NCBI RefSeq assembly: GCF_000385135.1
Contig: NZ_ARQM01000004.1
Location: 1-64,000 of the forward strand
Direction of reading: 5' to 3'
Origin: Promicromonospora sukumoe 327MFSha3.1
Lineage (GTDB): Bacteria; Actinomycetota; Actinomycetes; Actinomycetales; Cellulomonadaceae
DNA length: 64,000 nt
Below the pieces are notes generated by a model. That model saw only the letters and a program-made list of their open reading frames with translations. It was not told where the DNA came from and did not search any database. This document shows positions 1 through 15,538 of this stretch, in pieces. Position 1 is the stretch's first letter. Each line of letters opens with the position of its first letter. A program made the position numbers and the translations under genes.

Positions 1-230
1 GTGCCCCACACTGCGGCGTACTCCAGGTTCGCCGATTGCGCCGGCCACGGCCGTGACTGCACCGCCCGCGTGATCGTGAATCCGCCTGCGACCATCGCGT
101 CCAGACCGACCTCGCGAGTGTCGCCCTGTGCCACCGTGTTCGTGGCGATCAGGCCGACCATCCCCTTCGCTGACAGGAGCGAGGTCGCAATACGTCGTCG
201 CAGGTCAGGCACCCTGTCGTGGGTGAACAT
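1..230 (-). pseudogene. C-terminal part of a large DNA methyltransferase, truncated at its 5' side
   Basis: Read on the minus strand, this stretch gives RRRIATSLLSAKG, GMVGLIATNTVAQGDTREVG and AVQSRPWPAQSANLEYAAVW. I know these as the conserved block following the catalytic domain of large class I SAM-dependent N6-adenine DNA methyltransferases (MmeI/Eco57I-like, including the type used as DrmMI in class 1 DISARM). The reading runs off the window at base 1. Upstream it meets an in-frame TAG at 255-257 inside the recombinase gene, so the SAM-binding motif and the NPPY/F catalytic motif are missing. A fortuitous ATG lies at 230. The gene therefore looks cut by the recombinase-bearing DNA. No matching N-terminal half was found elsewhere in the window. 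The family call is from memory of conserved motifs; which system it belonged to is inference. Confidence 0.72.
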
Positions 231-1554
231 CAACCAAGTCCGTCGCTGCGTCCTCTATGCCCGCCTCAGCGTGACCAAGGAGGAATCTGTCTCGATCGCG
301 CGCCAGCTCGAATCCGGCCGCAAGTACGCAGAAGCCCGCGGATGGGAAGTCGTCGGCGAGTTCATCGACGACGGCGTCTCCGCGACAGTGAACCGTCCAG
401 AGGACCGCAAGGGCTGGGCCGCGCTTCTGGCGGCCGGGAAGTTCGATGCCGTCGTGATCTGGAAGGTCGACCGCCTCGCCCGTCGCGTTCTCGACTTCCT
501 TCATGCTGACGAGGCACTCCAGACTCGGGGCGCTGGCCTAGTGGCGGTCGAGGATCCCATCGACATGACGAGTCCGCAGGGCCGGGCCTTCGCGGTGATG
601 CTCGCCGTCTTCGGCGAGATGGAAGCCGAGGGCATCCGGGCGCGAGTCCGCGCGGCTCGCGCCCACCTCATCAAGGACGGTCGCTTCGTCGGAGGCGGCA
701 TTCCTTACGGATACCGATCGACCGAGAACCCCGACGGTCCTGGGCGGGTGTTGGAGAAGGACCCGGAGCGGATCGGCTGGCTCGGAGAGGCGGTGCGACT
801 CGCGCAGCACGGTGAGACTGTCAACGCGATCGCAACATGGCTTACTGCCCAGGAGGCGCCGCTCCCGGTGAGACGCAAGGCTCGCCTCGACCCGGAGAAT
901 CGCGCGTGGAATCGCCAGACCGTCGAGCAGCTCTTGCGGAACCCGATCCTGGCCGGGATGACGCCACACAACCCCGGCCGGGCGAAGAGCGACAAGCGGG
1001 CAGACCCATTCGCGGTTGTCCGCGACGAGCATGGTGCCCCAGTCATCGACGAGTCCCTCGCCCTCCTTACGTACGAGGAGTTCGAGCAACTACAGCACTC
1101 TCTGGACTCGCGCGACAGCCCCCAGGCTCGTAAGCGCTCTGAGCGCAAACCGACGAGCGCGTTCCTGTCGCGGGCCGTGCTCTGCGATGACTGCGACGTC
1201 TTTCTCTACCGAGGCACAAACCAGAAGCAGCCCGTTCTGTACTGCCCGCGGTGCCGTCAGACCATCGGACGCTCTCGCCTCGATTCGCACCTCGTTGACC
1301 GACTTCTGGCCGAACGTGGTGATGAGCCCCGTGCTGGATCGACTGTTCGGGAGCGCTGGGACGCGGCGGGCGCAAATGAACTGATCCGCCGCGAGATCCT
1401 TCTGTCGCAGACCGCGACACTGCGTGTGCGGCGTGGCGTGATCGGGCGTTACTTCGACAGCGAACGTGTGCTGTTGGAGTGGTTGCCATCAGCGTTGTCT
1501 GTCGAAAAATCGGAGCGGCCGGATGACGCGCTTGTCGTCGTGATGAGCGCGTGA
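223..1554 (+). CDS. Serine recombinase (resolvase/invertase family, large serine recombinase type)
   Basis: Catalyses site-specific DNA strand exchange through a serine-DNA intermediate. The N-terminal resolvase domain shows YARLS with the probable nucleophile Ser16, then VIWKVDRLARR and the PQGRAFAVMLAVFGEMEAE helix. A recombinase DNA-binding domain follows (GGGIPYGYRS, then VEQLLRNPILAGM). A zinc ribbon has LCDDC and YCPRC near residues 320-350. I start it at GTG 223 (443 aa), just before the resolvase fold. The reading frame stays open to base 1, but that stretch overlaps the methyltransferase fragment on the other strand and translates to arginine-rich non-homologous sequence. The stop at 1554 lies 150 bp before drmA. 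The gene sits exactly where the methyltransferase homology ends, as expected for an integrase next to its attachment site. Mobility of the island by this enzyme is inference. Confidence 0.88.
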   Translation: MNINQVRRCVLYARLSVTKEESVSIARQLESGRKYAEARGWEVVGEFIDDGVSATVNRPEDRKGWAALLAAGKFDAVVIWKVDRLARRVLDFLHADEALQTRGAGLVAVEDPIDMTSPQGRAFAVMLAVFGEMEAEGIRARVRAARAHLIKDGRFVGGGIPYGYRSTENPDGPGRVLEKDPERIGWLGEAVRLAQHGETVNAIATWLTAQEAPLPVRRKARLDPENRAWNRQTVEQLLRNPILAGMTPHNPGRAKSDKRADPFAVVRDEHGAPVIDESLALLTYEEFEQLQHSLDSRDSPQARKRSERKPTSAFLSRAVLCDDCDVFLYRGTNQKQPVLYCPRCRQTIGRSRLDSHLVDRLLAERGDEPRAGSTVRERWDAAGANELIRREILLSQTATLRVRRGVIGRYFDSERVLLEWLPSALSVEKSERPDDALVVVMSA

Positions 1555-1703
1555 TCCGAGAGCCGCGGGCCGTTCAGGGTCATGGACTACCGCGCTTCGG
1601 GGTGATCCCGCTGTCTCATGTCGCTTTCAGCAGGTTCGTGCCAGTGCTTCCCGCTACGGTGGTACCCGTCCCTGACCAGGCCATCTACAGGAGGCGACCC
1701 TTC

Positions 1704-4700
1704 ATGTCCGAGCTGGCTGAGGTGCCGTCGGGTAAGACGCCACCACCCGCTCGTCGGGAGTACGAACTCTCACACGTTCCGAGCGGCGAGTGGACCTCCT
1801 GGGACGTCCGGGAGAACTTCTCAGACATCTTGGAGCGTGAGCTGCTAGGTCCCGGCCACGGTGACGACGAACGGCTGGATGCCCCGCCGGATGTGCTGTA
1901 CCTGGTAGGGCGAATCGCGCCCGCAAAGCTGCTCGGCAAGGGCGTGGTCCGCAACGCCGACGGCGAGGACGGCGACGCGGACGTCGTCGAGGCCGAGGAA
2001 GCGGACCTCGGGCGGGGCGTGCCGGTGGGGACCGTCGAGGAAGCATCGTCGTCGGACGACGACGGCGTCGAGGACGCGCCAGTGCGCAAGGGGCTGATGA
2101 TCCCGGCGTCGATGGGGCTGCGCTTCCAGGTGCCGACGGACCTAGCGGCGGTGACGGTGCGGGCCGAGTGGGGCTCCTACAAGGTCGAAACGACCGACGA
2201 AATGGACCGTTCCGGCCGGCCGGTGCGGAAGTACGCCCGCACGCAGCACGTGCACTCGATAGAGCTCGACCTGCGGTCTCTCACGCACGGGACGACGAAG
2301 GACCTGTCACTCGAGGAAGCGGTCATCGTCCGGGTGGACGTCATGGACGACGTCGTCGGCTCCGCGAGCCGTCGCATCGTCGAACTGGCGCTGTGCAACG
2401 ACCGGGTCTCGCCGCGACGTATCCCTACCGACATGTGGATGTACCAGACCCGCCTACACGTCGATGCGGGCGGGCAGGCGGTCTTCCTGCCGGTGTCCGA
2501 CATACTCGACGACCCAGTGGCCCTGGATCCCGACGACGCGGAGTTGCGGCGGCTGCAGCTGCAGTACCGGGATCGACTGCAGTTCGCCGTCGGCAGGACC
2601 TGTTCGGCGGACTGGACCGTCGCTACTGGTGCCCGTCGTGCGACCCAGGTGCGGACGACGTGGCTGCCGGTCTCAGAGACCCCGCAGACACATGCGCGGG
2701 AGATATCCGGGGCTCTGCTCGACATGGTCGCGCTATCGACAGCCTCGGCCGAGACCCTGGAGGCCGGGCTGCGCCCCGTGGTCACGGGTTATCGCGCCTG
2801 GCTCGACGAGCAGGAATCGACCGCGGAAACCCTGCCGGAGCATCTGCGGGAGGTCGCCGCGGACACGATCCAGGACGCTCGCAAGGTCGCCACTCAGCTG
2901 GGGCGCGGTCTGGACTTTCTACTGAGCGACGATGAGGCACTACGGTGCTTCCGGTTCATGAACAGAGTCATGGCCGATCAGCGCATGCAGTCACAGGTCG
3001 CTGCGCTGCGGACGACAAGACCGGACCTCTCGCTTGCAGAGGCTCGTGCCGAGGTGGAGGAGAGAGGCCCGAGCGCGCACTCGTGGCGTACGTTCCAGCT
3101 CGCCTTCGTCCTCATGCAGATCGAGGCGCTGGCCGTGCCCGGCCTGGTGCGGCGTTCTTCGGACGGTGCTCGTGCGGAGCTCCTGTTCTTCCCGACCGGC
3201 GGCGGCAAGACCGAGGCGTACCTGGGCTTGGCGGCATTCACCTTCGCTATCCGACGGCGCCAAGGCGTCGTCGGTTCGGTCGACGGCGACCTGGACGGGA
3301 GCGACGGCGTCGCAGTCCTGATGCGCTACACACTGCGCTTGCTGACAGCCCAGCAGTTCCAGCGTGCCACCGCGTTGGTGTGTGCGGCGGAGGTCGCACG
3401 TCAGGAGGACCCGGAGGCATGGGGGACGACGCCGTTCCGGATCGGCCTGTGGGTCGGGACGTCGGTGTCGCCGAAGCGGTACCAGGAGGCGGAGGAACAG
3501 CTCAAGAAGGCAGCCGAGCTCAACTCAAAGTATGGCCTGACGGTACTGCAGCTCCAGCGCTGCCCGTGGTGCGGCACCCCGATCGAGGGGGCAAAGCACG
3601 TCAAAGGCGATCCGGTCACGGCCCGAATCCTCGTGTACTGCGGCGACCGGTTCGGCGATTGCCCGTTCTCGATGCGTGACGGCGGGGAGGGCCTGCCGGT
3701 CCTGACGGTGGATGAGGAGATCTACCGGCTCACGCCGTCGTTCGTCATCGCGACCGTCGACAAGTTCGCACGCCTGGCTCGCGAGGGCGAGGCTGCCGCG
3801 CTGTTCGGATATGTCGGTCGGCGGTGCGACCGGCACGGGTACGTCCACGAGGACTACGACGGCTGCTCGGTCGCGACCGGGGGCACGCACCCGAGCAACG
3901 GTGCCTACGGCGCGGCGCGGGTCCGGAAGACTGGCCGGCTTCGGCCGCCGGATCTGATCATCCAGGACGAGCTGCACCTGATCACCGGGGCGCTCGGCAC
4001 GGCCGTCGGCGCGTTCGAGATGGCGATCGACGTGCTTGCCACCTGGGACCAGGTCGACGGGACCCCAGTCCGGCCGCTCGTCGTCGCCTCTACGGCGACC
4101 GTCCGCAACGCGGTCGATCAAGTCAAGGCGTTGTACGGGCGCAGGGTCACGATGTTCCCGCCGCAAGTCCTCGACGTCGCCGACACGTTCTTTTCTCGCG
4201 AGGTGCCCGTCACCCTGCAGACACCAGGGCGCCGCTACGTTGGGGTGAGCACCACCGGAGTGCGTCTGACTGCGGCGGAGATCGTCGTCTCGTCCAACCT
4301 GCTGTCAGTCGGACAGCTCATGATGGACCGCGCCGGGAAGCCCGCGGACCCGTACATGACGCTCGTCGGCTACTTCAACGCGACCCGTGAGCTGGCCGGC
4401 ATGGCCCGCTACGTCGCCGACGACGTGCAGACAGCGATCAGCCGGCCCCGGCGTGGGAAGTATTTCCCGTTCCGTTACGGCACCGTTGGCGCGTTGAACG
4501 TCGCCGAACTGACCTCCCGCATCGCCTCGACCGAGATCAGCGGGAACCTCGACCAGATGGCCGTCGGGTTCGACCCGGAATTCGACAGCACCGCCAGCCG
4601 GGTTGCATGGCGTGCGTTGACCGATGCCGAGAAGAAGACTCGGTCGCGCGAGGTGCTGCCGTTCGACGTGGTGCTCGCTACCTCGATGCTGCAGGTCGGC

Positions 4701-5447
4701 GTCGACGTTTCCCGGCTCGGACTGATGCTGATGGTCGGGCAGCCGAAGAACACCGCCGAGTACATCCAGGCATCCTCCCGTGTTGGCCGCGAGGCCCGTT
4801 GGCCCGGCCTCGTGGTGACGCTCGGAAACTGGGCCCGTCCGCGAGACCTGGCGCACTTCGAGCAGTTCCGGTACTACCACGAGACTTTCTACGCGCAGGT
4901 GGAGCCGCTGTCCGTCACGCCCTACTCGCTGACCTCATTGGAACGGTCGCTCGACGGCGTACTCGTCTCCGCTGCCCGCGTCCTCGATGCGCCGCGCGGT
5001 GAGGAGGGATTGTCGCCAGAGCGGAACGCTGGGTGGATCGAGGACGCGGCGGACCGTATCGAGGCTCTCGCTGAGCGGCTCGTCGCGCGAGCGACGGTTG
5101 CCGCGGGCGAGGAAGCTGCGCATGAGGTATCCGAGCTGCTGAACAACCGGATCGGGAAGTGGAAGGCACGCCGCAAGATTGTCGCCGTGGACCAGCACAG
5201 GCTCGTCTACGAGAAGGTGGGCGACGGTTCCAAGTTCGCTGCGCTCCTCCGGTCCGCGGAGAACCGCAGCACTGGTGAGGGTGTGAGTCACGTGCCGTTC
5301 GTGGTGGCGAATTCGATGCGTGAGGTGCAGCCGGAGATCAACCTCCTGGTGACCCCGATGAAGGAGAAGCTCATGGCGCGCGAGCTGTACGACGCACCGT
5401 CCTGGGGTGCTTCCGAGACCACGGCTGTGGACGGAGGCGACCGATGA
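1704..5447 (+). CDS. drmA: DISARM helicase DrmA
   Basis: Large superfamily 2 helicase-like protein of the DISARM anti-phage system, where DrmA and DrmB are thought to form the DNA-recognising core. Visible motifs are Walker A FFPTGGGKTEAYLGL (about residues 494-508), RYTLRLLTAQQFQRA, DELHL in place of DEAD/H (about 755), SATV-type motif STAT (about 795), and the motif V/VI block ATSMLQVGVDV...SSRVGRE (about 992-1025). A cysteine insertion, CPWCG...YCGDRFGDC, lies near 620-650. Length 1247 aa fits DrmA. ATG 1704 is chosen because AGGAGG lies 9 nt upstream; the in-frame GTG at 1551 would add an unrelated 51-residue leader. The stop overlaps the drmB start (ATGA), implying translational coupling. 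No methylase gene is adjacent. Confidence 0.88.
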   Translation: MSELAEVPSGKTPPPARREYELSHVPSGEWTSWDVRENFSDILERELLGPGHGDDERLDAPPDVLYLVGRIAPAKLLGKGVVRNADGEDGDADVVEAEEADLGRGVPVGTVEEASSSDDDGVEDAPVRKGLMIPASMGLRFQVPTDLAAVTVRAEWGSYKVETTDEMDRSGRPVRKYARTQHVHSIELDLRSLTHGTTKDLSLEEAVIVRVDVMDDVVGSASRRIVELALCNDRVSPRRIPTDMWMYQTRLHVDAGGQAVFLPVSDILDDPVALDPDDAELRRLQLQYRDRLQFAVGRTCSADWTVATGARRATQVRTTWLPVSETPQTHAREISGALLDMVALSTASAETLEAGLRPVVTGYRAWLDEQESTAETLPEHLREVAADTIQDARKVATQLGRGLDFLLSDDEALRCFRFMNRVMADQRMQSQVAALRTTRPDLSLAEARAEVEERGPSAHSWRTFQLAFVLMQIEALAVPGLVRRSSDGARAELLFFPTGGGKTEAYLGLAAFTFAIRRRQGVVGSVDGDLDGSDGVAVLMRYTLRLLTAQQFQRATALVCAAEVARQEDPEAWGTTPFRIGLWVGTSVSPKRYQEAEEQLKKAAELNSKYGLTVLQLQRCPWCGTPIEGAKHVKGDPVTARILVYCGDRFGDCPFSMRDGGEGLPVLTVDEEIYRLTPSFVIATVDKFARLAREGEAAALFGYVGRRCDRHGYVHEDYDGCSVATGGTHPSNGAYGAARVRKTGRLRPPDLIIQDELHLITGALGTAVGAFEMAIDVLATWDQVDGTPVRPLVVASTATVRNAVDQVKALYGRRVTMFPPQVLDVADTFFSREVPVTLQTPGRRYVGVSTTGVRLTAAEIVVSSNLLSVGQLMMDRAGKPADPYMTLVGYFNATRELAGMARYVADDVQTAISRPRRGKYFPFRYGTVGALNVAELTSRIASTEISGNLDQMAVGFDPEFDSTASRVAWRALTDAEKKTRSREVLPFDVVLATSMLQVGVDVSRLGLMLMVGQPKNTAEYIQASSRVGREARWPGLVVTLGNWARPRDLAHFEQFRYYHETFYAQVEPLSVTPYSLTSLERSLDGVLVSAARVLDAPRGEEGLSPERNAGWIEDAADRIEALAERLVARATVAAGEEAAHEVSELLNNRIGKWKARRKIVAVDQHRLVYEKVGDGSKFAALLRSAENRSTGEGVSHVPFVVANSMREVQPEINLLVTPMKEKLMARELYDAPSWGASETTAVDGGDR

Positions 5448-7516
5448 CTGAGGTGACGCAACAAAGAACGCTGCCGCCAAACCCGGTGGATGACGGCCTC
5501 GACCCCCTGGGCGACCTGGACGCGATCGACGCGCAGAAGGCGACGAAGAATCGGGCGAAGGTCGGCTCGGCTCGGCCGTCGTCGTTGCTGTACACGTACG
5601 GGCCTGGCGCGATCATGGACCTGCCGCACTTCACGGTCATGCCCGCTGGGCTCGACGACTGGGAGAAAGTCTGGGCTCGGCGTCCCTCCGTGCCCACGAT
5701 CCATGCGCCGCGTCTGCTCGACGCCGTGCGGCGCTTCCCTGGCCACTGGAACGTCGGCGAGCTGCGGCCGTTCCCGTGGGCGCCTAAGCAGACCCAGTTC
5801 TCCAAAGAGACGGACGACCTCGGCGTGCCCGCTCGTGTCTTCCCCCAGTGGCTGCGCTGCCCCGGCTGCGATCTGCTCGGGCCGCTAACACGGTTCGACT
5901 ACGTCAACACGAACCCGTTCCGGCCCGACCGCGCCCGCTTCGAGCACGCTGGATGTCCGAAAGCACCCAAGGGCCGTAAGGTCGGCATCCAGGCAGTTCC
6001 CGCGCGCTACCTGCTGGCCTGCCCAGATGGGCACCTCGACGAATTCCCCTACGACTGGTGGGTCCACGAGGGCGGCTACTGTCCGACGCCCGGCGTCACC
6101 AGCGCAACCCTCAAGATGACCGAACGCGCCGGAGGCAAGGGTGCCTCCGCGACCGTGCACTGCGCACCGTGCGGGGCGTCGCGGCCCATGAACCAGGCCC
6201 AGGGTGAGGTCGGGCGAGCGAAGCTCCCCGCCTGCCGTGCCAGGCACCCGCACCTGGGAATGTTCGACCCGCGCGGTTGCACCGCCGAGACGCGCCTCAT
6301 GCTGCTCGGCGCGTCGAACCTGTGGTTTGCTGCGACCCAGTCCATCGTCGTCATGCCTGAGGCGGAGAAGGCCGTGCCCTCGACGCTTGGGTTCCAGCTC
6401 CTGGAAGCCGTTGGCGCCAAGCGCCTCGAGAAGTACGGCGATGACTTGGCCCGCTACCGCGACTACCTCGACGAGGAGGACTCGCCGCTCGCGGCCTGGA
6501 GCGACGAACAGCTCGCCGCGGCGATCACGCAGGCGCATGAGCCTGAACCCACAGCCGAAGAACAGCTCGTGGCGCTGGGGGAGTGGGACCCGATCGATCT
6601 GCTCGTGCCCGAGTGGAACTATCTCCAGATAGATCCCATCGGGCCTCGGCACGAGGGTGATGCGCTCAGCGGGCTGGCACTCACGAAGCAGCCCGTCCAC
6701 GCGAACCTGTCCAGTCGTGGTGTGTCCCGGGTCCTTTCCGTGGACCGGCTGCGGAAGGTCAACGCCGTCGTCGGATTTACCCGCATCGATGAGATGGAAC
6801 GCGCCAACGACATGCCCGCCCGCATCGTCCCACTCACCCGTTCCGGACGCCCGACCTGGACCGTCGCCACTTTGGACAAGGGCGAGGGCGTCTATCTGCA
6901 GCTCGACGAGGGCCGCGTGACAGCCTGGGAGCAGCGCGTGCTGGACGCACGCTCCTGGCGTGCCGATGCCGTCGATCTGTGGGAGGCCCATCGGGAGTCC
7001 CACGAGCGCAACTTTGCGAACCGGTACTCCGACACCGCCGTCGGTGACGCCGAAGGCCGCTTCAAGCCACCGCGCTACTGGCTGCTGCACACGCTCTCAC
7101 ACGTACTCATCCGAGAGATGGCGATGTACTCGGGATACTCCGCTGCTTCGCTCTCCGAGCGCGTCTACGCATGGGACGAGACCGACGACCGCCCGCCGGC
7201 GGCTGGGCTCATGATCATCACCACGGCCTCGGACTCCGACGGGACGCTCGGCGGGCTCGTGCAGCTGTCCAAGCCGGAGAAGCTGAAGCGTGTCCTGGAG
7301 CGAGCGTTGACGCGAGCTCGGCGATGCTCGTCGGACCCGGTCTGCGGGCAGCGAGTCCCGAAGGAACCCGAGGACTTCCTGCATGGGGCCGCCTGCCACA
7401 CATGCGCGATGGCGTCGGAGACCTCGTGCGAGCGGGCCAACCGGTTCCTCGACCGCCGGTTCCTTGTCAACCTTCCCGGGTTCATGGGGTACGGGTTCTT
7501 CGAGCAGAGTGCCTGA
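5444..7516 (+). CDS. drmB: DISARM protein DrmB (DUF1998 domain)
   Basis: Second core DISARM component, 690 aa. The N-terminal part has RPSSLLYTYGPGAIMDLP, which I recognise as the usual beginning of DrmB-like proteins. Zinc-ribbon-like cysteines follow (CPGC near 140, CAPC near 240). The C-terminal DUF1998 region carries KPPRYWLLHTLSHVLIREMA and the cysteine cluster CHTCAMASETSCERANRFLD with LVNLPGF. DrmB is reported to associate with DrmA and to load it on DNA; no enzymatic motif is evident here. It starts 4 bp inside drmA and overlaps drmC by 8 bp, so the three genes form one transcription and translation unit. Confidence 0.88.
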   Translation: MTEVTQQRTLPPNPVDDGLDPLGDLDAIDAQKATKNRAKVGSARPSSLLYTYGPGAIMDLPHFTVMPAGLDDWEKVWARRPSVPTIHAPRLLDAVRRFPGHWNVGELRPFPWAPKQTQFSKETDDLGVPARVFPQWLRCPGCDLLGPLTRFDYVNTNPFRPDRARFEHAGCPKAPKGRKVGIQAVPARYLLACPDGHLDEFPYDWWVHEGGYCPTPGVTSATLKMTERAGGKGASATVHCAPCGASRPMNQAQGEVGRAKLPACRARHPHLGMFDPRGCTAETRLMLLGASNLWFAATQSIVVMPEAEKAVPSTLGFQLLEAVGAKRLEKYGDDLARYRDYLDEEDSPLAAWSDEQLAAAITQAHEPEPTAEEQLVALGEWDPIDLLVPEWNYLQIDPIGPRHEGDALSGLALTKQPVHANLSSRGVSRVLSVDRLRKVNAVVGFTRIDEMERANDMPARIVPLTRSGRPTWTVATLDKGEGVYLQLDEGRVTAWEQRVLDARSWRADAVDLWEAHRESHERNFANRYSDTAVGDAEGRFKPPRYWLLHTLSHVLIREMAMYSGYSAASLSERVYAWDETDDRPPAAGLMIITTASDSDGTLGGLVQLSKPEKLKRVLERALTRARRCSSDPVCGQRVPKEPEDFLHGAACHTCAMASETSCERANRFLDRRFLVNLPGFMGYGFFEQSA

Positions 7517-8252
7517 CCGCGTCTCCGTGACAGCGAACGAGGAAGAAGCGGTGACCCGGCTCGGGGCGCTGCTGACCGGGACCGAGGCCCGGCTCGCTGC
7601 CCAAGCACTCGGTGAGGGGGAGTCCGTGTCCTCGGCGTTCGGCATCGTCGAAGCCGGACGTCGCGCGGAGGCCCTCGAGCTCGTCGCCGCCGCAGGGTTG
7701 CGTGCCCGGCGAGACGTCCTCATCACTGTGCTGCGCGGCATCGAGGGCGCGCGATTCCGTGCCACGAGAGTGGACACGCTGTGGACCATGCCCGCACACC
7801 TCGCCGGGAGCGGAGGCCTCACGTCGTCACTCGTCGAGCTCGTCGACAGGGCACGCGAGTCGATCGTGTGCTCGACGTTCAACTTCCAACGCACGTCAGG
7901 GATGTGGGTTGCGCTGCGACAGGTTGCCTTACGGCCAGAAACGAGCGTGCGCATCTACCTCGACTCGGCCGCTGCCGCTGGCGGTCGGGCGGCGTCTCCT
8001 GAGGATGTTGCCGTGCAGTTGGCACCAGCTGTCGTGCTGGCGACCGGGACCTTCGATGGCAAGCCGGTCCGCAACCATGCGAAGTTCGTGTCGATCGACC
8101 ACCGGTGGGTTGTGATCACCAGCGCGAACTTCTCCTGGAGCGCCGAGTACGGAAACGTCGAGCTAGGCGTCGTCATCGACGACCCGAACCTGGCCGACCG
8201 GATCGAGCGGGAGATGCGCGATGCCGAGGACATCGTCTACAAGCATGCTTGA
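7509..8252 (+). CDS. drmC: DISARM phospholipase-D-like protein DrmC
   Basis: Third gene of the drmABC core, about 247 aa with GTG 7509 as start (GTG 7527 is also possible). It contains one PLD/HKD signature: HAKFVSID (about 190-197) followed by SANFSWSAEYGN. The conserved His, Lys, Asp and Asn of PLD-family nucleases are present. An upstream half-motif region, ESIVCSTFNFQ, resembles the first beta-strand of PLD folds. DrmC is a putative nuclease, dispensable in some tested DISARM systems. It overlaps the drmB stop. The stop at 8252 faces the UvrD gene stop with 3 bp between, so any terminator must lie in coding DNA. Confidence 0.85.
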   Translation: MPDRVSVTANEEEAVTRLGALLTGTEARLAAQALGEGESVSSAFGIVEAGRRAEALELVAAAGLRARRDVLITVLRGIEGARFRATRVDTLWTMPAHLAGSGGLTSSLVELVDRARESIVCSTFNFQRTSGMWVALRQVALRPETSVRIYLDSAAAAGGRAASPEDVAVQLAPAVVLATGTFDGKPVRNHAKFVSIDHRWVVITSANFSWSAEYGNVELGVVIDDPNLADRIEREMRDAEDIVYKHA

Positions 8253-8255
8253 CAC

Positions 8256-10478
8256 CTACTCTGCATCGGGCAAGAGCGAACTCTTCGGACCGTCCCACAC
8301 GATCGCCAGCTGGTCCCGTGCGCGAGTCGCCGCCACGTACAGCACAGACCTCTCCTGCTGCACCCGCTCCTTGCGTTCCTCCGCAGGCACCTTGTTCATG
8401 CCCGCTGGCACCACGTCTGCGGAGATACCGAACAGCAGCACCCGGCGGAACTCCATGCCCTTGGCGCGGTGCATGGTCATCACCGGAACGTTGCCCTTGC
8501 CCAGAGTCGAGCTGGTCCCAACGTACTTCGCCGGGATTCCGCGCTCTCGGAGGTCGTCGGCCAGTATCTTTCCTTCGTTACGGTTTCGGACGAGCACCGC
8601 GAGGTCCGACGCGTCGTCTACCTTCGTTCGCCAGCCTGTCAGGATGCGGGCGGTCGCGGCATAGGCCTCATCCATCTGTGCGAAGCCGTGTTCCTCAGGC
8701 GGCGGGCCGATCCGGGACGAGCGGTAGCCGAGGGAAGAAGTGGCGTCGTTCTCCATGTCGACCAGAGATTCTCCACCTAGGACGCTTACCGCGTACCGGA
8801 GGGTCTGCGCCGTCGTTCGGTAGTTCAGGGTCAGCCTGCGTGACCGGCCGGCCAGCCGGATGCCCAGGCGGGCGGGAACGACGCGAGGGCTGTAGATCCG
8901 CTGCTGAGAGTCTTCGGCGATGAAGAAGTCGTTGCCGCCCGGCGCCACGAGCGCGCGGAGGAACAGCAGGTGGGCGGGAGTAAGGTCCTGCGCCTCGTCG
9001 ACCAGCACATGGTCGGCGAACCGAGGTTGTCCTGCGGCAGCCATCGCGTCAAGCGCCGTGGCAACGACGAGCGAGCACTCGTCGAACCCGATCTTTCCGC
9101 CGTGCGCGAGGCGGGCGCGGTAGTCCTCGATCACGTCCCACACGGCGGATCGCTGCACCCTGTTCAGCGCTACGCCCCGGCCAGGCCGGCCAGCTTGTAG
9201 GTACTCGGCACGGTTGGTGATCCGTCCAGCAAGCACGACCTGGCCGTACTCTCCGGACAGGAACGCAGCAGTGCGGAGTGACTCGGGCAGTTCCCAGCCG
9301 GCGGCACTGAGCGCAGCCCGCCACGTGCGGTCCACCTCCGGGTCGAGATCGAGCCCATGCCGCTGCCCACCGATGACGTGGACGGCGCTGTCGATCGGGA
9401 TTCCTCGTCGCGACGCATGGTTGAGCAGGTTGACGCTGATGGCGTCCACATTGCTCACGTACACGCCTGGTTCCCCAGGCTCCCTGGCGATCCGCACCCC
9501 GGGGTCCAGGATCGTCAACTGCCTGAGGAGCTCCTCGGCCAGTGTCCGGTTGAACGTCGTCAGGACGATCCGCGCCTCTGGATCTGCCGTGGCGAGCCAT
9601 CGCGCGCGGTGGAGCAGCACGACGGTCTTGCCGGTACCGGCGCCGCCCGAGAGCCGGAAGGATCCTGTCATCGGCGACTCGGCGTACCGGCGCTGCTCCG
9701 GGTGAAGGAACACACGCCAGCGGCCGAAGTTGGGATCCTCGATGGCGTCCCGCAGTGCCTTGTCATCTCTGACATAGGCGAACTCCATTTGCGTGGCGGG
9801 GTGGTCGAGGGCACTCAGGACGCTCTCATCCGAGTTCGGATCGCCGGACGAGGGGCGCAGCTCATATCGGGCGCGCACCTCGCTGAGTGGTGTGCCTATG
9901 GCAAGGTCCAGGAGGACCTCGGCTTGCCATTTTGCACGGGCGGTATCCGTCAAGGCTGAGAACGCGTTCTCGTCGCTCTCGGCGATCGCCTGCTCTGCCA
10001 GGTCGTCCGTGATGCCGATCTCAAGGAGATCGGTGAGGGAGATACCGTGCTTCGTGAGCAGGGGCGATGCTGTGTCTTCTCGCGGCGGGGTGCGGTCATA
10101 GGTGGACGGGTACGGGCGAGAGACGGGCGCGGGCGCGGGCGCGGACGCCTCGATCAGCTCCAGGACGCCGCTTGCTGGGTTGACGCGTAGCGTTGCCTTC
10201 TTCGCGAATGTGATCGCGTCGTCGTGCGGGTACGTACCCAAGTAGACATAGTGAGCCTCGTAGCCACCCTGCGGTGCCAGCTTTACCAGGACGGCTCGCC
10301 AGAACTTGTCGACTCGTCCAGTCCGGACACGCGGGTCGACGGTCCCGGTGATGGGCTCGATGTGCAGTCCAGGGACTGTGTCGTCGGAGCGGAGCTTCTC
10401 CAGGAAGGTAAACACCTTGCCACTCACGCTCTTGTCGAGTGCAGGCCGCTGCGCTGGACCGAGAGTCACATGAGGCAC
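8256..10478 (-). CDS. UvrD-like superfamily 1 helicase with N-terminal RelE/ParE-like domain
   Basis: 740-aa ATP-dependent DNA helicase. Motifs in order: Walker A GGAGTGKTVVLLHRA (about 278-292), LVDEAQDLTP (about 493-502, motif II), LTLNYRTT (motif IV), MTMHRAKGMEFRRVLL (motif V) and VLYVAATRARDQL (motif VI). Residues 10-110 do not belong to the helicase. KVFTFLEKLR...PGLHIEPI...RVDKFWRAVLVK...YLGTYPHDDAITFA resembles RelE/ParE/HigB toxins, a fusion I know from other actinobacterial UvrD proteins. The gene lies 73 bp downstream of the TOPRIM-like gene on the same strand, so the three minus-strand genes probably form one operon. Gabija also pairs an ATPase-TOPRIM nuclease with a UvrD helicase (GajB), but GajB is smaller and lacks this N-terminal domain. 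Participation in a shared system is inference. Confidence 0.85.
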   Translation of the reverse strand: MPHVTLGPAQRPALDKSVSGKVFTFLEKLRSDDTVPGLHIEPITGTVDPRVRTGRVDKFWRAVLVKLAPQGGYEAHYVYLGTYPHDDAITFAKKATLRVNPASGVLELIEASAPAPAPVSRPYPSTYDRTPPREDTASPLLTKHGISLTDLLEIGITDDLAEQAIAESDENAFSALTDTARAKWQAEVLLDLAIGTPLSEVRARYELRPSSGDPNSDESVLSALDHPATQMEFAYVRDDKALRDAIEDPNFGRWRVFLHPEQRRYAESPMTGSFRLSGGAGTGKTVVLLHRARWLATADPEARIVLTTFNRTLAEELLRQLTILDPGVRIAREPGEPGVYVSNVDAISVNLLNHASRRGIPIDSAVHVIGGQRHGLDLDPEVDRTWRAALSAAGWELPESLRTAAFLSGEYGQVVLAGRITNRAEYLQAGRPGRGVALNRVQRSAVWDVIEDYRARLAHGGKIGFDECSLVVATALDAMAAAGQPRFADHVLVDEAQDLTPAHLLFLRALVAPGGNDFFIAEDSQQRIYSPRVVPARLGIRLAGRSRRLTLNYRTTAQTLRYAVSVLGGESLVDMENDATSSLGYRSSRIGPPPEEHGFAQMDEAYAATARILTGWRTKVDDASDLAVLVRNRNEGKILADDLRERGIPAKYVGTSSTLGKGNVPVMTMHRAKGMEFRRVLLFGISADVVPAGMNKVPAEERKERVQQERSVLYVAATRARDQLAIVWDGPKSSLLPDAE

Positions 10479-10551
10479 GTTGGCAGACTACGTCGCCTTC
10501 GCCTGGAAATCGTCCGTTACGCGCCGCCGTTTGTGATGTTGAGCAGGGGAT

Positions 10552-11169
10552 TCACCGGAGCAGAGCCCGAACAGCCCGCTCGGTTTCCTGCGCGAGCCGC
10601 TGGAACGAGGGAAGCTGCGCGACCGGACCGTCCAGGTCCAGGCGTTCGAGCAGGGCTCGCCGATGGTCGTTGAACCGATTCTTCGTCTGCTTTAGGCGTC
10701 GCCCAGTCGTCTCGCTTGCTCGGGAGCACGCTCGCATCAGGATGTCCTTCGAGCCCTTGGTGTCCTCGATCTGCCGGAAGAGAGGTACATCGAGGCTGAC
10801 GCGACCTCGGCTGTTACCGACGACATCGCGGATCGCTTGTTCGTCAGTGAGGAGCCAGGCCTCGGTCATCTGCACCGGGACGACAGGAACGCCTCGAAGG
10901 CCATGCTGGGCGAATGCCGCATGGATCTCTTCAACACGAGGTGTTGGGTCCGAGGAGTCCGCGTCACGGTGGAGGAAGACCAGGTCGTACGACACATCGG
11001 ACTTCATGAGGTCAGAGATCTTCTTCTCCGACGGGCCATGGGATGGCTGATGCAGGCCTTGTACTTCGTCGGCGCCGGCGCGCCGGACCAGTTCGCTGAT
11101 GATCCCGACGAGCGGGATGTCGCTCGTGCCCTCCGCGAGAAGGACGAACGAGATCATGCGAAGCCCCAT
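10552..11169 (-). CDS. TOPRIM-like protein (DUF4276-type), putative nuclease subunit
   Basis: 205 aa. The N-terminus shows FVLLAEGTSD with Glu13, and further on VFLHRDADS with Asp69 and Asp71. This E...DxD pattern is the metal-binding signature of TOPRIM folds and matches DUF4276/OLD-type TOPRIM partners of AAA ATPases. The middle has MTEAWLLTDEQAI, also common in that family. The ATG overlaps the stop of the ATPase gene (ATGA), so the two are translationally coupled and likely form one complex. In GajA or OLD nucleases both domains are on one chain; here they are separate, as in PARIS (AriA/AriB, whose TOPRIM is DUF4435). Nuclease activity is inferred, not shown. Confidence 0.75.
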   Translation of the reverse strand: MGLRMISFVLLAEGTSDIPLVGIISELVRRAGADEVQGLHQPSHGPSEKKISDLMKSDVSYDLVFLHRDADSSDPTPRVEEIHAAFAQHGLRGVPVVPVQMTEAWLLTDEQAIRDVVGNSRGRVSLDVPLFRQIEDTKGSKDILMRACSRASETTGRRLKQTKNRFNDHRRALLERLDLDGPVAQLPSFQRLAQETERAVRALLR

Positions 11170-12584
11170 CAGACACCTGCCTCGTCGTTCGAGAGTAGGT
11201 CGACGACGAGCTGGTCGCCCTCTTGCGTGACGAGATAGGCCTGGACGTCGGCCCTGGTCAGAGCGACACGTGCGGGTGTGCTGCGCCAGGTGCCGCGCAT
11301 CGAGTGGAGACGGACGGTTACGGCTGCACGGTTCGACCGGGTGATCGAGGTGTTGAACGCCAGCACCAGGTCCTCCGCGTTCTGCATGCTCACGAAGCGC
11401 GGGGAGTGAGTGTTGACAATGACCTGGCGCAAGGGGTTGGAGCGGTCCAGTGGCTCGTCGGGATCGACCGCGAGGCTGCGGACGAGGTCGACCATTGCGC
11501 GCATCCGTGCCGGGTGGATCCCGTTCTCGGGCTCCTCCATACAGATGACGCCGTTGAAGTCCGGGTCCTCGACCATGATGCAGAGCGCCAGAAACCGCAG
11601 CGTCCCGTCAGACAGGTTGCGGGCGGGAACCATCCGACCAGGCCCGATGCCGGCGTAGAGGGTGAGGAGTTCGCGTTTAGCATCGGAGTCGACGTCGATC
11701 TCGCGGACATCGGTCAGTCCGAGTGCGGCAGCCTTGACGCGCTCGTAGGCGGCACCGCCGTCGACCGCCGCCATGCGGCTCAACGCCGATGCCATGTGCG
11801 CGCCGTTCTCCGAGATCGTCGTCGGTGCCGTGACCTCGTCCGGCTGTCGCATCGCCGAGGGTTCGAGGGCCAGGAGGCTCCAGTGCCGCATTTCGTTGCG
11901 GGCGGCGAGGATCGTCGGCGCATCGATGGTCGTCGTCGTGCTCACAGCAGTGCGGGGTGCAAGGCGCGCAGGGGACTTCTGGGGCCGCCCGTCATGCCCC
12001 TCCGTGTGGACGAGCACGGCGACCTCACCGTCGTCCTCGTTGAGCGTGGAGATCAGTGTGGTGTGTCCCCCTTCGGCGGTGATTACGGCGTTGCGGAACG
12101 AATCCCGGCCACGGAGCCAGGCGATCCGATCGACAGCGCCGGTGGAGTCGATGCTGCTCAGGCTCTCGTGTAGGAGCCGGATCCCACCAGTGCGGCCGTG
12201 GGACTCGACTGCGGTTGGTACGTCCTCCAGCTCGAGCTCGTAGCGCAGGTATGTCGCCGTCGTTGTGCCCATGCGCCCGAAGTCGTCGGTGACTTCGCGC
12301 GGCACGATCATCTCGGCGGCAAGCCGCATAGTCCGGGGTTCGCCGGGCCGGGCGCCGTCCCAGAAGAGCAGCGAAAGGTCAGGCGGGCCACCATCAATGG
12401 CGCGCACTCGTGAGGCAGCCTCAATGAACGTCGTGTCCGCGAGCAGGGACAGGAAGCGGATCGCGTCAAAGATGTTCGACTTGCCGACCGCATTGGGCCC
12501 GGCGATGCAGGTGTAGGGACCGAAGTCCGCTTCGAATCCGAGCAGGTTCTTGAACCCGTCGATCTCCAGTCGGGTCAGCACCAT
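11169..12584 (-). CDS. AAA ATPase of the OLD/RecF-like (AAA15/AAA21) family
   Basis: 471 aa, SMC/ABC-type ATPase. It begins MVLTRLEIDGFKNL, the usual first strand, and has Walker A GPNAVGKSN at residues 29-37. The ABC signature-like NLSDGTLRFLALCIM lies near 320, Walker B with catalytic glutamate (ICMEEPENGIHP) near 348, and the switch histidine NTHSPRF near 390. No TOPRIM domain follows, so the protein ends where the ATPase of an OLD nuclease would end; the TOPRIM-like partner is encoded by the next gene, overlapping by one ATGA. The gene heads a minus-strand operon ending in the UvrD-like helicase. Such ATPases sense phage DNA or proteins in Gabija, PARIS and retron systems; the trigger here is unknown. 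Confidence 0.85.
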   Translation of the reverse strand: MVLTRLEIDGFKNLLGFEADFGPYTCIAGPNAVGKSNIFDAIRFLSLLADTTFIEAASRVRAIDGGPPDLSLLFWDGARPGEPRTMRLAAEMIVPREVTDDFGRMGTTTATYLRYELELEDVPTAVESHGRTGGIRLLHESLSSIDSTGAVDRIAWLRGRDSFRNAVITAEGGHTTLISTLNEDDGEVAVLVHTEGHDGRPQKSPARLAPRTAVSTTTTIDAPTILAARNEMRHWSLLALEPSAMRQPDEVTAPTTISENGAHMASALSRMAAVDGGAAYERVKAAALGLTDVREIDVDSDAKRELLTLYAGIGPGRMVPARNLSDGTLRFLALCIMVEDPDFNGVICMEEPENGIHPARMRAMVDLVRSLAVDPDEPLDRSNPLRQVIVNTHSPRFVSMQNAEDLVLAFNTSITRSNRAAVTVRLHSMRGTWRSTPARVALTRADVQAYLVTQEGDQLVVDLLSNDEAGV

Positions 12585-13370
12585 TCGACCCTACCTGTGA
12601 ACGGGTGTGGATCCCGCGATCTGGCAAGAGTCGGTGGACTCTCGGTGGCCGAAACGTGGGCTCGATCGCGGGTGAGGTGGGTTGTCGGGTCTTCGGAAGC
12701 CTCTATAAGGGAGAGGAGTTGTTTGTGCCCGCGACTCCCGAAGAGATCAAGGATCTGCGGGTGCCTCGTCCCGGTCTGTCCGCACGACGGCCATGAGACA
12801 CGAGCACGTCAAGTCGCGTGCCCACTAGGTACCACCCCGATTGCCCTTCTCGGCGGCGGGTTGCCCCCGCGCGGAGACCGGCAGATGATCCGTGTTCGAG
12901 CCGCAAGCACGACCCTCCGGTCGTGGGCCAGTGTCCGCGGCCGCCTTCTGCATCTCGAGTCGGGCCTCACACACGATGGGGCGCCGAGGGCCGCACTGGA
13001 TCCGCGACCTGGTCTTCGGAGAATCCCAGCCTTCGGTTCAAGCGAGGTGAATAGACTCGCCTACCGGGATCGCCCGGGTCCTGGACCAGGTGCGATCCGA
13101 CCAGGCTTTGGCGCCGATCCGCTGTACCGCAGCCGTCGATCGCCTGGCGCAAGGGTTTCGAGGCCCGGTGATCAGGCTCGACAACGGGGCATTGAGCGCG
13201 GCTAGCCGCCAAACATCGCCGGTGCCGACGGCGACCCCATCGGCACTTTCGAGACGTCCCAGCGTGGTGGCTTCGGTGAGGCCAGCGGCCCATGGGCATT
13301 GTTCCGACGCCTCGTGGACATCGATTCTGAGCCGCTGGACCTCAGATTTTATATTGGGGATGATTCCCAT
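12585..13370. other. 786-bp stretch with no convincing gene
   Basis: Divergent intergenic region between the ATPase operon (minus) and the next plus-strand gene, so it should hold both promoters. Open frames are present but arginine/proline-rich. The only protein-like piece is a short plus-strand reading at 12605-12796 ending EELFVPATPEEIKDLRVPRP, and another near 13060-13180 (IARVLDQVRSDQALAPIRC...). I matched neither to a family. They may be remnants of decayed genes. The last 40 bp before 13371 are AT-richer (cagattttatattgggga), fitting a promoter/ribosome-binding region for the downstream gene. Confidence 0.4.
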
Positions 13371-14726
13371 ATGGGTAAGAACCCCGCGCAGCTGAATCAG
13401 AAGCAGGTCGACGTCCTACGTTGGATCGACGACGGATGCCCCGACGGTGTCTACGTCGACGGCTATGAGCACCGGATTGTTGCCCGGGCGCTGCAGAACC
13501 GAGGTTTGGTGACGATCAGTGGCAGGGGACCGACCTGGAGTGCCCGTGTCACCAAAGCTGGCCGCCAGTGGCAGGCCGCGCCGCCTGCAGTGGTCCTGCC
13601 CGATGAGTCCGAGGCCGACCGGCTGATCGGCAGGGTCTTGGATGCGGGCGGTCGGCTGACGTTGCCCGAAGACCGAGAGGTCGAGTCAGCCCATGAGCGG
13701 CTTGTCCGCATGAGCCTCAAGTCGCCGGCGCGGCCCAGAGGCAAGCGGTTGGAGATGGTCTCGACCGGACACTGGGGCCAGGGGCCCAAAACGATCGAGT
13801 TTGTCGAGCACTTCGACGACCTGGTGGAGCCGCGGCCAGTGCCTATCCCCGAGGGGATCGGGAAGTACCACCCGGCGGTGAGGGCCTATGTGAGCAATAA
13901 GGAATGGCAATACGTCACCACGGAATACATCGGGCGGGCCGCTCGCATCTTGCAGGCCCTCGCCAACGAAGCTAGCAAGCGCGGGCTCGTCGCCACAGAC
14001 CCAGGCTCTGCAGCGAAGGGCCTCCCAGATCATCAAGCCCGAGAAGCGAGAGCAGGACACCTCGCTCTGCGAACGCCCGCAGGTGTCTACAGCATTCAGG
14101 TCAAGGAGATCGCCGGCAAGGGAGGGCAGAAGACCGCCCGGCGCGGGTGGAACGAACGCAAGGTAGACCCTGCGTGGATCGAGAACCGGGGATGGGAGTT
14201 CATCAGCACTGGGAAGCTCGAACTTATTGTCCGCGGCCCTGGAAGCGCCTACGGAGGCGACCACTACCGCGACGCCAAGACGATCACGGTCGAGGATCGA
14301 CTCCCTGAGCTGCTGCGCTCGTTCGAGGTCCACAAACTTCGCGCGGACTGGCAGGAGCAAGAGCGCAATCGCGAGAAGGCTGACAGGCGCCAGCGCTGGG
14401 AGCGCGCGATGGCCTTGGCCAAGGAAGAGTACTTTGCTCACGCGCGCTGGGAGCACTTCAAAGAGCGTTCACGAGAGTGGCAGGCGATCAATCAGCATCG
14501 AGGCTTCCTCAAATCGGCCAGAGCAGGCCTGGGACAGTACGAGGGCGAGGATCGAGACCTGATCGAACAACAATTGGATGAAGCCGAGCAGACGATCGAC
14601 ACTCTCGACTCCATCCGGCACCCTGCGCGCATCGTCCCGAATGTTCCGGAACCCAAGGCCGAGGACCTAAAGCCGTTCCTCCATGGATGGAGCGTCCACG
14701 GCCCGGACGGATCTCCCTGGGGGTGA
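13371..14726 (+). CDS. Hypothetical protein, winged-helix-like N-terminus and coiled-coil C-terminus
   Basis: 451 aa from ATG 13371. GGGGA lies about 10 nt upstream, and earlier in-frame codons give low-quality sequence. Residues 1-65 (LNQKQVDVLRWIDDGCPDG...ARALQNRGLVTISGRG...WSARVTKAG) read as a winged helix-turn-helix. The central part contains basic segments such as VKEIAGKGGQKTARRGW. Residues about 345-430 are highly charged and predicted helical (WQEQERNREKADRRQRWERA, then a Q/E-rich stretch), suggesting a coiled coil. Similar proteins occur, as far as I recall, as uncharacterised genes in actinobacterial mobile DNA. A DNA-binding role is inferred from the N-terminus only. A terminator-like palindrome follows at 14779. 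Confidence 0.6.
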   Translation: MGKNPAQLNQKQVDVLRWIDDGCPDGVYVDGYEHRIVARALQNRGLVTISGRGPTWSARVTKAGRQWQAAPPAVVLPDESEADRLIGRVLDAGGRLTLPEDREVESAHERLVRMSLKSPARPRGKRLEMVSTGHWGQGPKTIEFVEHFDDLVEPRPVPIPEGIGKYHPAVRAYVSNKEWQYVTTEYIGRAARILQALANEASKRGLVATDPGSAAKGLPDHQAREARAGHLALRTPAGVYSIQVKEIAGKGGQKTARRGWNERKVDPAWIENRGWEFISTGKLELIVRGPGSAYGGDHYRDAKTITVEDRLPELLRSFEVHKLRADWQEQERNREKADRRQRWERAMALAKEEYFAHARWEHFKERSREWQAINQHRGFLKSARAGLGQYEGEDRDLIEQQLDEAEQTIDTLDSIRHPARIVPNVPEPKAEDLKPFLHGWSVHGPDGSPWG

Positions 14727-14778
14727 CGGCCGGAAATGGATGAATCTCGCTTGCGATGGGCTCGATCGTCGACCCGAC

Positions 14779-14806
14779 GGCCTCCCCAGGCCTGGGGAGG
14801 CCTTTC
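14779..14806 (+). terminator. Perfect 12-bp palindrome followed by TTTCT
   Basis: The arms ggcctccccagg/cctggggaggcc (14779-14802) abut with no spacer and are followed by tttct. This is a rho-independent-like terminator 52 bp after the stop of the winged-helix gene. Confidence 0.65.
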
Positions 14807-14869
14807 TCACCCAGCGGTTCACCCGGGCCGCTGTTCCGCGCACTGGTGTGGCCGCGTAGCGTCCAGCCC

Positions 14870-15538
14870 ATGACTGATGCCGGTGATGTCGATGCCGTCG
14901 AGAAGCTTGTGCGTGACCGGCTTGGGTCGACCTCATCTTGGGTTGAGCCGGATGGCTACCCCGACTCGCTGGCCCTGTGTGCCATCGACTCGATCTACTC
15001 GCTGCAGTCGCACTACACCGCAACGGTCCGCGTCTTGGACCGCTATCGCGCGTACCGGCGCGAACAGGACGCTGACCCGAACAAGGATGGAGCGCCCGAG
15101 CTGCTGGCCGCGATTCAGGAAGCCGACGGCCCGGCCGCGGCCGCGGACAGCCTCTTCGGTAATCGCGCGAAGGCGCCCGGTACGAAGCGACTTAAGTCGG
15201 AAGCTCTCGCCGACGCGGTGGCGAGGCTAGCTGGCATCGGCGTAGAGACCACGGCCCATCTCCGCTCCGCTGAAGCGTCGGAGGCGCGGCGCGCCTGGAG
15301 TGTCAAGGGACTCGGGCCCGTCTCGTGGGACTACCTCCTGATGCTCGCCGGCGCTCAAGGCGTCAAAGCGGACACCAAGGTCCGGCAGTTCGTCACGACT
15401 GCGGTTGGGGAGAGCTGCATTGTCTCGAAGGGCCGCGCGGAGCGTGCGGTGAAGGCTGCATCGGAACGTCTCGGATCGACGCAGCGCGCTCTCGACCACG
15501 CGATCTGGCAGTACCAGCGGACGGTCCAGAAGCTATGA
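14870..15538 (+). CDS. Hypothetical protein with HhH-GPD-like segment
   Basis: 222 aa from ATG 14870; an upstream extension to 14756 reads through the terminator palindrome and is rejected. The segment GLGPVSWDYLLMLAGAQGVKADTKVRQFV (about residues 145-172) matches the helix-hairpin-helix plus GPD loop layout of DNA glycosylase-like proteins: a G-x-G-P/V hairpin, then helix and an acidic residue. The rest of a true base-excision glycosylase, for example the iron-sulphur cysteines of EndoIII, is absent. N-terminal helices precede it (ALCAIDSIYSLQSHYTATVRVLDRY). No clear ribosome-binding site is seen, which may mean leaderless translation. Function unknown; DNA binding is plausible in this island. 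Confidence 0.55.
   Translation: MTDAGDVDAVEKLVRDRLGSTSSWVEPDGYPDSLALCAIDSIYSLQSHYTATVRVLDRYRAYRREQDADPNKDGAPELLAAIQEADGPAAAADSLFGNRAKAPGTKRLKSEALADAVARLAGIGVETTAHLRSAEASEARRAWSVKGLGPVSWDYLLMLAGAQGVKADTKVRQFVTTAVGESCIVSKGRAERAVKAASERLGSTQRALDHAIWQYQRTVQKL

Follow-up and report, generated by a model that had tools for sequence, protein, structure and literature searches.

Neighbouring HEC-01 pair and ArmD-type helicase beside a class 1 DISARM in Promicromonospora sukumoe

Whether neighbouring genes on one strand make up a single defence system is the question raised by positions 8256–12584 of a 64,000-nucleotide stretch (positions 1 to 64,000 of contig NZ_ARQM01000004.1) of Promicromonospora sukumoe 327MFSha3.1, the whole of which is called the window here. 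Three minus-strand open reading frames (ORFs) are found there (Table 1), and an earlier note on this DNA had taken them for an OLD-type ATPase, a small TOPRIM-like protein and a UvrD helicase forming a Gabija-like operon with its nuclease split over two genes, a variant bridging Gabija and PARIS. The three genes and the split of the nuclease into separate ORFs of 471 and 205 amino acids stand, and the reading as a Gabija-like system does not. As judged from sequence comparison, the ATPase and the small protein fit HEC-01, a candidate pair of the PADLOC collection, and the helicase fits ArmD of ARMADA type II, so that the trio does not connect Gabija to PARIS. It is a case of two known kinds of module lying side by side, not a new Gabija. 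With a probability of roughly three in four, the island holds two independent defence modules, namely the HEC-01 pair and an ArmD-type helicase that most likely assists the class 1 DISARM encoded next to it.

The evidence for independence comes from the distribution of the genes. In an order-level set of 297 genomes (E up to 1e-40 for the helicase and 1e-30 for the ATPase) and a partly overlapping class-level set of 394 genomes (E up to 1e-40), the helicase was found in 36 and 91 genomes and the ATPase in 7 and 6, respectively, the genome of the window being counted each time; they were seen as neighbours in that genome alone. Elsewhere the two genes lie about 25 kb apart (genome G535), megabases apart (G151) or on different contigs (G562 and G575). 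The surroundings of 31 other helicase loci of the order were read in stretches of about 10–20 kb, which cover 32 of the 36 places outside the window, the remaining four (G089, G121, G144 and G263) being the shortest, core-only matches. No HEC-01 gene occurs in any of these stretches; the helicase thus stands without the ATPase pair in 31 of 31, the very independence that had been named beforehand as counting against the trio. Instead, an ArmC-like helicase (matching the DruE model) lies directly upstream in 26 of them, with a co-directional methyltransferase match also in the stretch in 17 of these 26. The other five comprise two loci beside DISARM (L058 of G231 and L093 of G177), one beside McrBC (L076), and L094 and L097. 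Among plasmid records, of which 8 out of 90 were read, six carry the helicase behind a methyltransferase and an ArmC-like helicase, one beside McrBC and one beside a type III restriction-modification system. As a side observation, L060 (7019–12272) has two RelE-UvrD genes in tandem behind a single ArmC-like helicase.

The pair itself is lastingly linked. The contigs of 84,980 species were scanned for HEC-01A, and the best 80 of 529 confirmed loci were examined, 54 of them with 5 kb or more to either side; all counts for these wider loci refer to those 80. By their record titles they belong mostly to Actinomycetota, with some Pseudomonadota, Chloroflexota and others. HEC-01B follows HEC-01A directly in 78 (77 as separate rows, plus L142), the exceptions being L158 and L166, the latter at a contig end. 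A stricter count by ORF distance gives 73 of 80; it leaves out L142, L158, L166 and four loci whose predicted ORFs begin too far upstream (L112, L117, L133 and L173). The pair also occurs in seven of the eight order-level loci (exception, L079), and the small protein was found in 7 of the 297 order genomes (E up to 1e-5, own genome included). No relative of HEC-01 was found in viral contigs. In G008 (L078), the closest relative with 64% and 55% identity, glycoside-hydrolase genes flank the pair on one side and no ArmD-type match occurs within 20 kb. In the Streptomyces contig L142 (7462–9195), the C-terminal part of HEC-01A and HEC-01B share one open frame, by fusion or by a frame change. In the co-occurrence survey that the earlier note had called for, 79 of the 80 wider loci have the pair and no ArmD-type helicase.

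Several observations weigh against treating pair and helicase as independent. The last base of the HEC-01A stop codon is also the first of the HEC-01B gene (a 1-base overlap), and only 73 bases separate HEC-01B from the co-directional helicase gene, so that co-transcription is possible; a crude scan of this gap found no promoter- or terminator-like site. In one wider locus, L112 from Actinophytocola, an operon-like run (5507–15330) encodes an Eco57I-type methyltransferase, an Mrr_N/AAA_5 (McrB-like) protein, HEC-01A, HEC-01B, McrC and a RelE-UvrD protein. Moreover, the surroundings of the gene are cut off by a contig end in some genomes, as in G562, where HEC-01A lies at C175:56–541. The same strand, the short distances, the L112 run and the similarity of the helicase to GajB (PADLOC models, best 3.5e-25) are also what speaks for a single Gabija-like system, in which the split ATPase and TOPRIM protein would correspond to GajA and the RelE-UvrD helicase to GajB. 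This alternative is nevertheless very improbable, given that the two parts were seen as neighbours in one of 297 order genomes and one of 394 class genomes, both the window's own, and in one of the 80 wider loci; in addition, ArmD has published partners of its own (Bell et al. 2025 preprint, available text of PMC12458937), and the ATPase fits the HEC-01A model (2.6e-90) far better than GajA (3.6e-11). Apart from this question, it may be recorded that HEC-01 in L112 lies between the McrB-like and McrC genes.

The assignment of the pair to HEC-01 rests on adjacent genes that match the HEC-01A and HEC-01B models of PADLOC, the latter with 2.8e-23. The ATPase was correctly described as OLD-type, with Pfam matches to AAA_21 (6.3e-24) and AAA_15 (1.3e-16), and its GKSN, EEPENG and HSP motifs are conserved across nine aligned sequences. 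Another possibility is that the pair is PARIS proper, in which, according to the available text of PMC10568477, ATPase and TOPRIM protein are likewise encoded by separate genes, ariA and ariB. The ATPase matches AriA models (6.6e-24), and its profile matches AriA chains in the Protein Data Bank (PDB; 3.9e-5). The first of these matches is, however, no better than that to the general AAA_21 family, and the small protein matched no AriB model in PADLOC and no AriB chain in the PDB, which leaves PARIS proper a poor candidate with little chance of being right.

HEC-01B is predicted to be a TOPRIM-fold protein with a plausible metal site, as the earlier note had supposed. Its match to Pfam DUF4276 (29.5 bits) falls just below the cut-off of 30.2. 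The AlphaFold model, made from 78 aligned sequences with a predicted local distance difference test (pLDDT) score of 96.8, arranges its strands and helices as in TOPRIM, E13 following strand 1 and D69 and D71 following strand 3. In these 78 sequences, position 13 is always acidic (E in 70, D in 8), D69 and E103 are invariant, position 71 is acidic in 76 (D in 68, E in 8) and K141 is present in 77. In a Foldseek search of the PDB, the second and third hits are TOPRIM domains from the C-termini of class 2 OLD proteins (6nk8 and 6njv, with probabilities of 0.97 and 0.98). Weighing against the assignment, the scores of both are modest (E 0.016–0.017; template-modelling score, TM, 0.41–0.43); no match reached E ≤ 0.001, rank 1 was a subunit of a large redox complex (7bkb, TM 0.29), and no nuclease came up when the PDB was searched by sequence. 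The analysis lends structural support to HEC-01B as a TOPRIM-fold protein. No account of the HEC-01 pair was found in the literature searched, which does not mention DUF4276, and the PADLOC server paper does not contain the word HEC.

The helicase has Pfam matches to UvrD_C (1.6e-22) and UvrD-helicase (3.6e-16), and the RelE-like domain attributed to it is borne out by structure prediction: its first 116 residues are modelled with a RelE/ParE-like fold (pLDDT 86.4). By entry title or known identity, 24 of the 25 top Foldseek rows for this domain are toxins of the YoeB, ParE, RelE, YafQ or HigB kind or their relatives, the remaining one being Txp40; the best match is 6n90 (probability 1.00, TMt 0.66, E 1.0e-3). 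Sequence matches are weak (best E 0.041), and the domain alone had no match in Pfam. Residues D48, R55, R61, H85 and A92 are invariant in 28 aligned sequences. ArmD is described as indispensable to ARMADA type II (PMC12458937, available text), and in a tree of 40 of 41 helicase sequences (L097 left out) the window protein is nested among the ArmDs of ARMADA, as sister to that of G231 with support of 100/100.

The likeliest partner of this ArmD in the window appears to be DISARM, on account of the tree, of the adjacency to DISARM in three of three cases and of a genome in which no ArmC orthologue was found. Near-full-length DrmA is encoded by 12 genomes of the order; three of them have ArmD, each time next to DISARM, and the other nine have no ArmD match at E ≤ 1e-40 anywhere. 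The DrmA closest to that of the window (72% identity) is in G231. The ArmD of G177, which lies behind drmC, belongs to another clade together with McrBC-linked ones; the window and G231 proteins being in a separate clade from it, the association with DISARM has by the tree arisen at least twice. In the window itself, the ends of drmC and of the convergent helicase gene are 3 bases apart. The search for ArmC in the own genome gave a single 36% match over 131 query residues and no orthologue, ArmA and ArmB not having been searched separately. An argument against a partnership is that the layout differs each time, being convergent in the window, divergent from drmD in G231 and co-directional after drmC in G177, so that the two may merely share an island. 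The absence of an ArmC orthologue and this unconserved arrangement would also suit an orphan, that is, a helicase left over from a lost ARMADA operon and without a role in DISARM or HEC-01. That explanation is rather doubtful; the reading frame is open, the residues of the helicase and of the RelE domain are kept, the sister gene in G231 likewise adjoins DISARM, and in G177 an ArmD of another lineage comes after drmC. In the preferred reading, then, ArmD, drawn from the stock of ARMADA, would assist class 1 DISARM as an accessory translocase or helicase.

Other combinations of the two kinds of system were seen. In G024 and G099, a more distant DrmA/DrmB pair lies beside a whole ARMADA operon, and L071 and L072, from two genera, each hold another pair resembling DrmA/DrmB that, along with a GajB-like helicase, converges on an ARMADA operon. 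L207 has a UvrD protein about 4.5 kb away from its DISARM that might have been one more ArmD, but this was set aside because NERD+UvrD is its best PADLOC model and the RelE-domain profile does not match it.

Table 1. Features of the window discussed in the text, with coordinates, strand and basis of assignment
Feature	Coordinates	Strand	Basis
Inverted-repeat arm, reverse-strand piece of drmMI	1..189	.	Exact opposite-orientation copy ends contig C11
Large serine recombinase directly before drmA	190..1554 (true start inside stretch)	+	Pfam Resolvase 3e-31, Recombinase 1.8e-10 (scanned as 1-1554)
DISARM DrmA helicase	1551..5447	+	NCBIfam DISARM_DrmAS 1325.6 bits, cut-off 950
DISARM DrmB	5444..7516	+	NCBIfam DrmB_fam 650.1 bits, cut-off 240
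DISARM DrmC (PLD)	7512..8252	+	NCBIfam DISARM_DrmC_I 153.4 bits, cut-off 133 (scanned as ORF 7383-8252; start inferred from overlap with drmB)
ArmD-type superfamily 1 (UvrD) helicase with N-terminal RelE-fold domain, 740 amino acids	8256..10478	-	Pfam UvrD, ARMADA-type homologues, tree
Predicted RelE/ParE-fold N-terminal domain, helicase residues 1-116	10131..10478	-	AlphaFold, Foldseek, invariant residues
HEC-01B, DUF4276-type protein of predicted TOPRIM fold, probable nuclease, 205 amino acids	10552..11169	-	PADLOC, AlphaFold, Foldseek, conserved residues
HEC-01A, OLD-type ABC ATPase, 471 amino acids	11169..12584	-	PADLOC, Pfam AAA_21, conserved motifs

The DISARM next to the trio is of interest in itself. 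Its class 1 set appears complete, with drmA–C in the window; contig C11 of the same genome closes with drmD and the 5' portion of drmMI (L228, 8751–15000), and the two contigs presumably join into one operon. The drmD of C11 is 72% identical to that of G231, and C11 ends inside drmMI, its last 189 bases being exactly repeated, inverted, at the very start of the window. If a switch is located here, this is the point at which one would expect the assembly to be interrupted. This DISARM is very probably phase-variable, the target-recognition domain of drmMI being switched by a dedicated serine recombinase. A serine recombinase gene lies directly before drmA in three of the 12 DrmA genomes (the window, G197 and G229), the contig of G239 starting only inside drmA; the loci outside the window in which it has this place are L206, L212 and L215. 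G197 and G229 carry the 3' part of drmMI a second time, on the reverse strand, in the interval from drmMI to the recombinase gene. The segment is flanked by inverted-repeat arms, 307 bases long at 79% identity in L206 and 570 bases at 90% in L212 and L215 (in L212 the first 240 bases are identical). An MmeI target-recognition domain is encoded in the reverse-strand part itself, and the corresponding domain of the main drmMI gene falls within the segment if the arms are counted with it. No relative of the recombinase was found in plasmids at E 1e-60.

Both orientations appear to be present in G229. The first 21 kb or so of its contig recur at the far end (8,480 bases at 99.9%, the rest at 97–99%), a terminal redundancy as in a circular chromosome left unclosed. 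Between the arms, a core of 1,180 bases matches at 100% in opposite orientation, and the C-terminal parts of drmMI are exchanged, each sharing 97.6–97.7% identity with the reverse part found in the opposite copy, which is what the DNA of one isolate with both forms would give. Alternatively, the two orientations may be an assembly error at the inverted repeat, and it tells against switching that the drmA and drmB frames are broken in one copy, as in an unpolished contig end. The hsdS genes of a pneumococcal type I system are known to undergo inversion. No account of an invertible DISARM was found in the literature searched, which includes the available text of PMC7365801 and lies largely outside subscription papers. 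If the switch is true, the recognition-flipping methyltransferase of DISARM would make specificity, self-protection and population-level bet-hedging directly testable.

As regards the role of HEC-01, the pair probably acts as a guard in the manner of PARIS. In that system, a phage trigger is detected by AriA and AriB is activated as a two-metal Toprim nuclease cutting tRNA (PMC12839542 and PMC12409363, available text), and in a comparative study of BREX, units of an OLD-ABC protein and a nuclease are regarded as a backup effector layer against phage counter-defence (PMC12839542, available text). By analogy, HEC-01A would hold HEC-01B in check within a putative complex and would sense a phage factor, for example an inhibitor of nearby restriction-type systems; once released, HEC-01B would act as a two-metal nuclease on a presumed substrate, and its action would stop the infected cell. 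The GC (guanine-plus-cytosine) content in 2-kb bins is 0.64–0.68 over positions 1–24000 and 0.69–0.77 over 24001–64000 except for one bin of 0.66, and this step suggests an acquired island ending near 24 kb. A tentative picture of the whole, and an unlikely one in its entirety, is that of a layered, phase-variable defence composed of a recognition-swapping class 1 DISARM, a RelE-UvrD helicase recruited from ARMADA and a HEC-01 guard stopping the cell if restriction is blocked. When ten proteins, nine from the window and one from L207, were compared separately with the PADLOC models, only the helicase of L207 and the protein at 15626–17212 (+) had matches, the latter to HEC-07 (1.3e-17), which makes it another candidate defence gene of the same island.

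The trio itself adds little, except as an example of island neighbours easily mistaken for an operon; more notable are the adjacency of ArmD to DISARM and, most of all, the probable drmMI switch. ArmD is not bound to ARMADA. Its occurrence also beside DISARM, McrBC and type III restriction-modification suggests that a helicase bearing a toxin-like domain may serve modification-linked defences as a common accessory.

When compared with known systems, the trio resembles Gabija in having ATPase, TOPRIM and UvrD functions within 4.3 kb, and differs from it in that the ATPase and TOPRIM parts are two ORFs instead of the single GajA, that the helicase is of ArmD type with a RelE domain, and that the linkage of nuclease and helicase is not conserved. 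PARIS shares the OLD-type ABC ATPase and the TOPRIM protein on separate genes, the difference being the DUF4276 type of HEC-01B. The AAA family ATPase MAD3 of MADS (NCBIfam NF047739) is matched by HEC-01A with 115.9 bits, far below the curated cut-off of 420, and membership in MADS was rejected on that score. ARMADA type II has the RelE-UvrD helicase ArmD in common with the window; the YprA-like helicase ArmC, which accompanies it there with ArmA and ArmB, has no orthologue found by the ArmC search of the own genome, and the helicase lies beside DISARM. Finally, HEC-01 is matched by both genes as an overlapping pair, with no difference in the pair itself, and what is particular to the window is its setting next to ArmD and DISARM.

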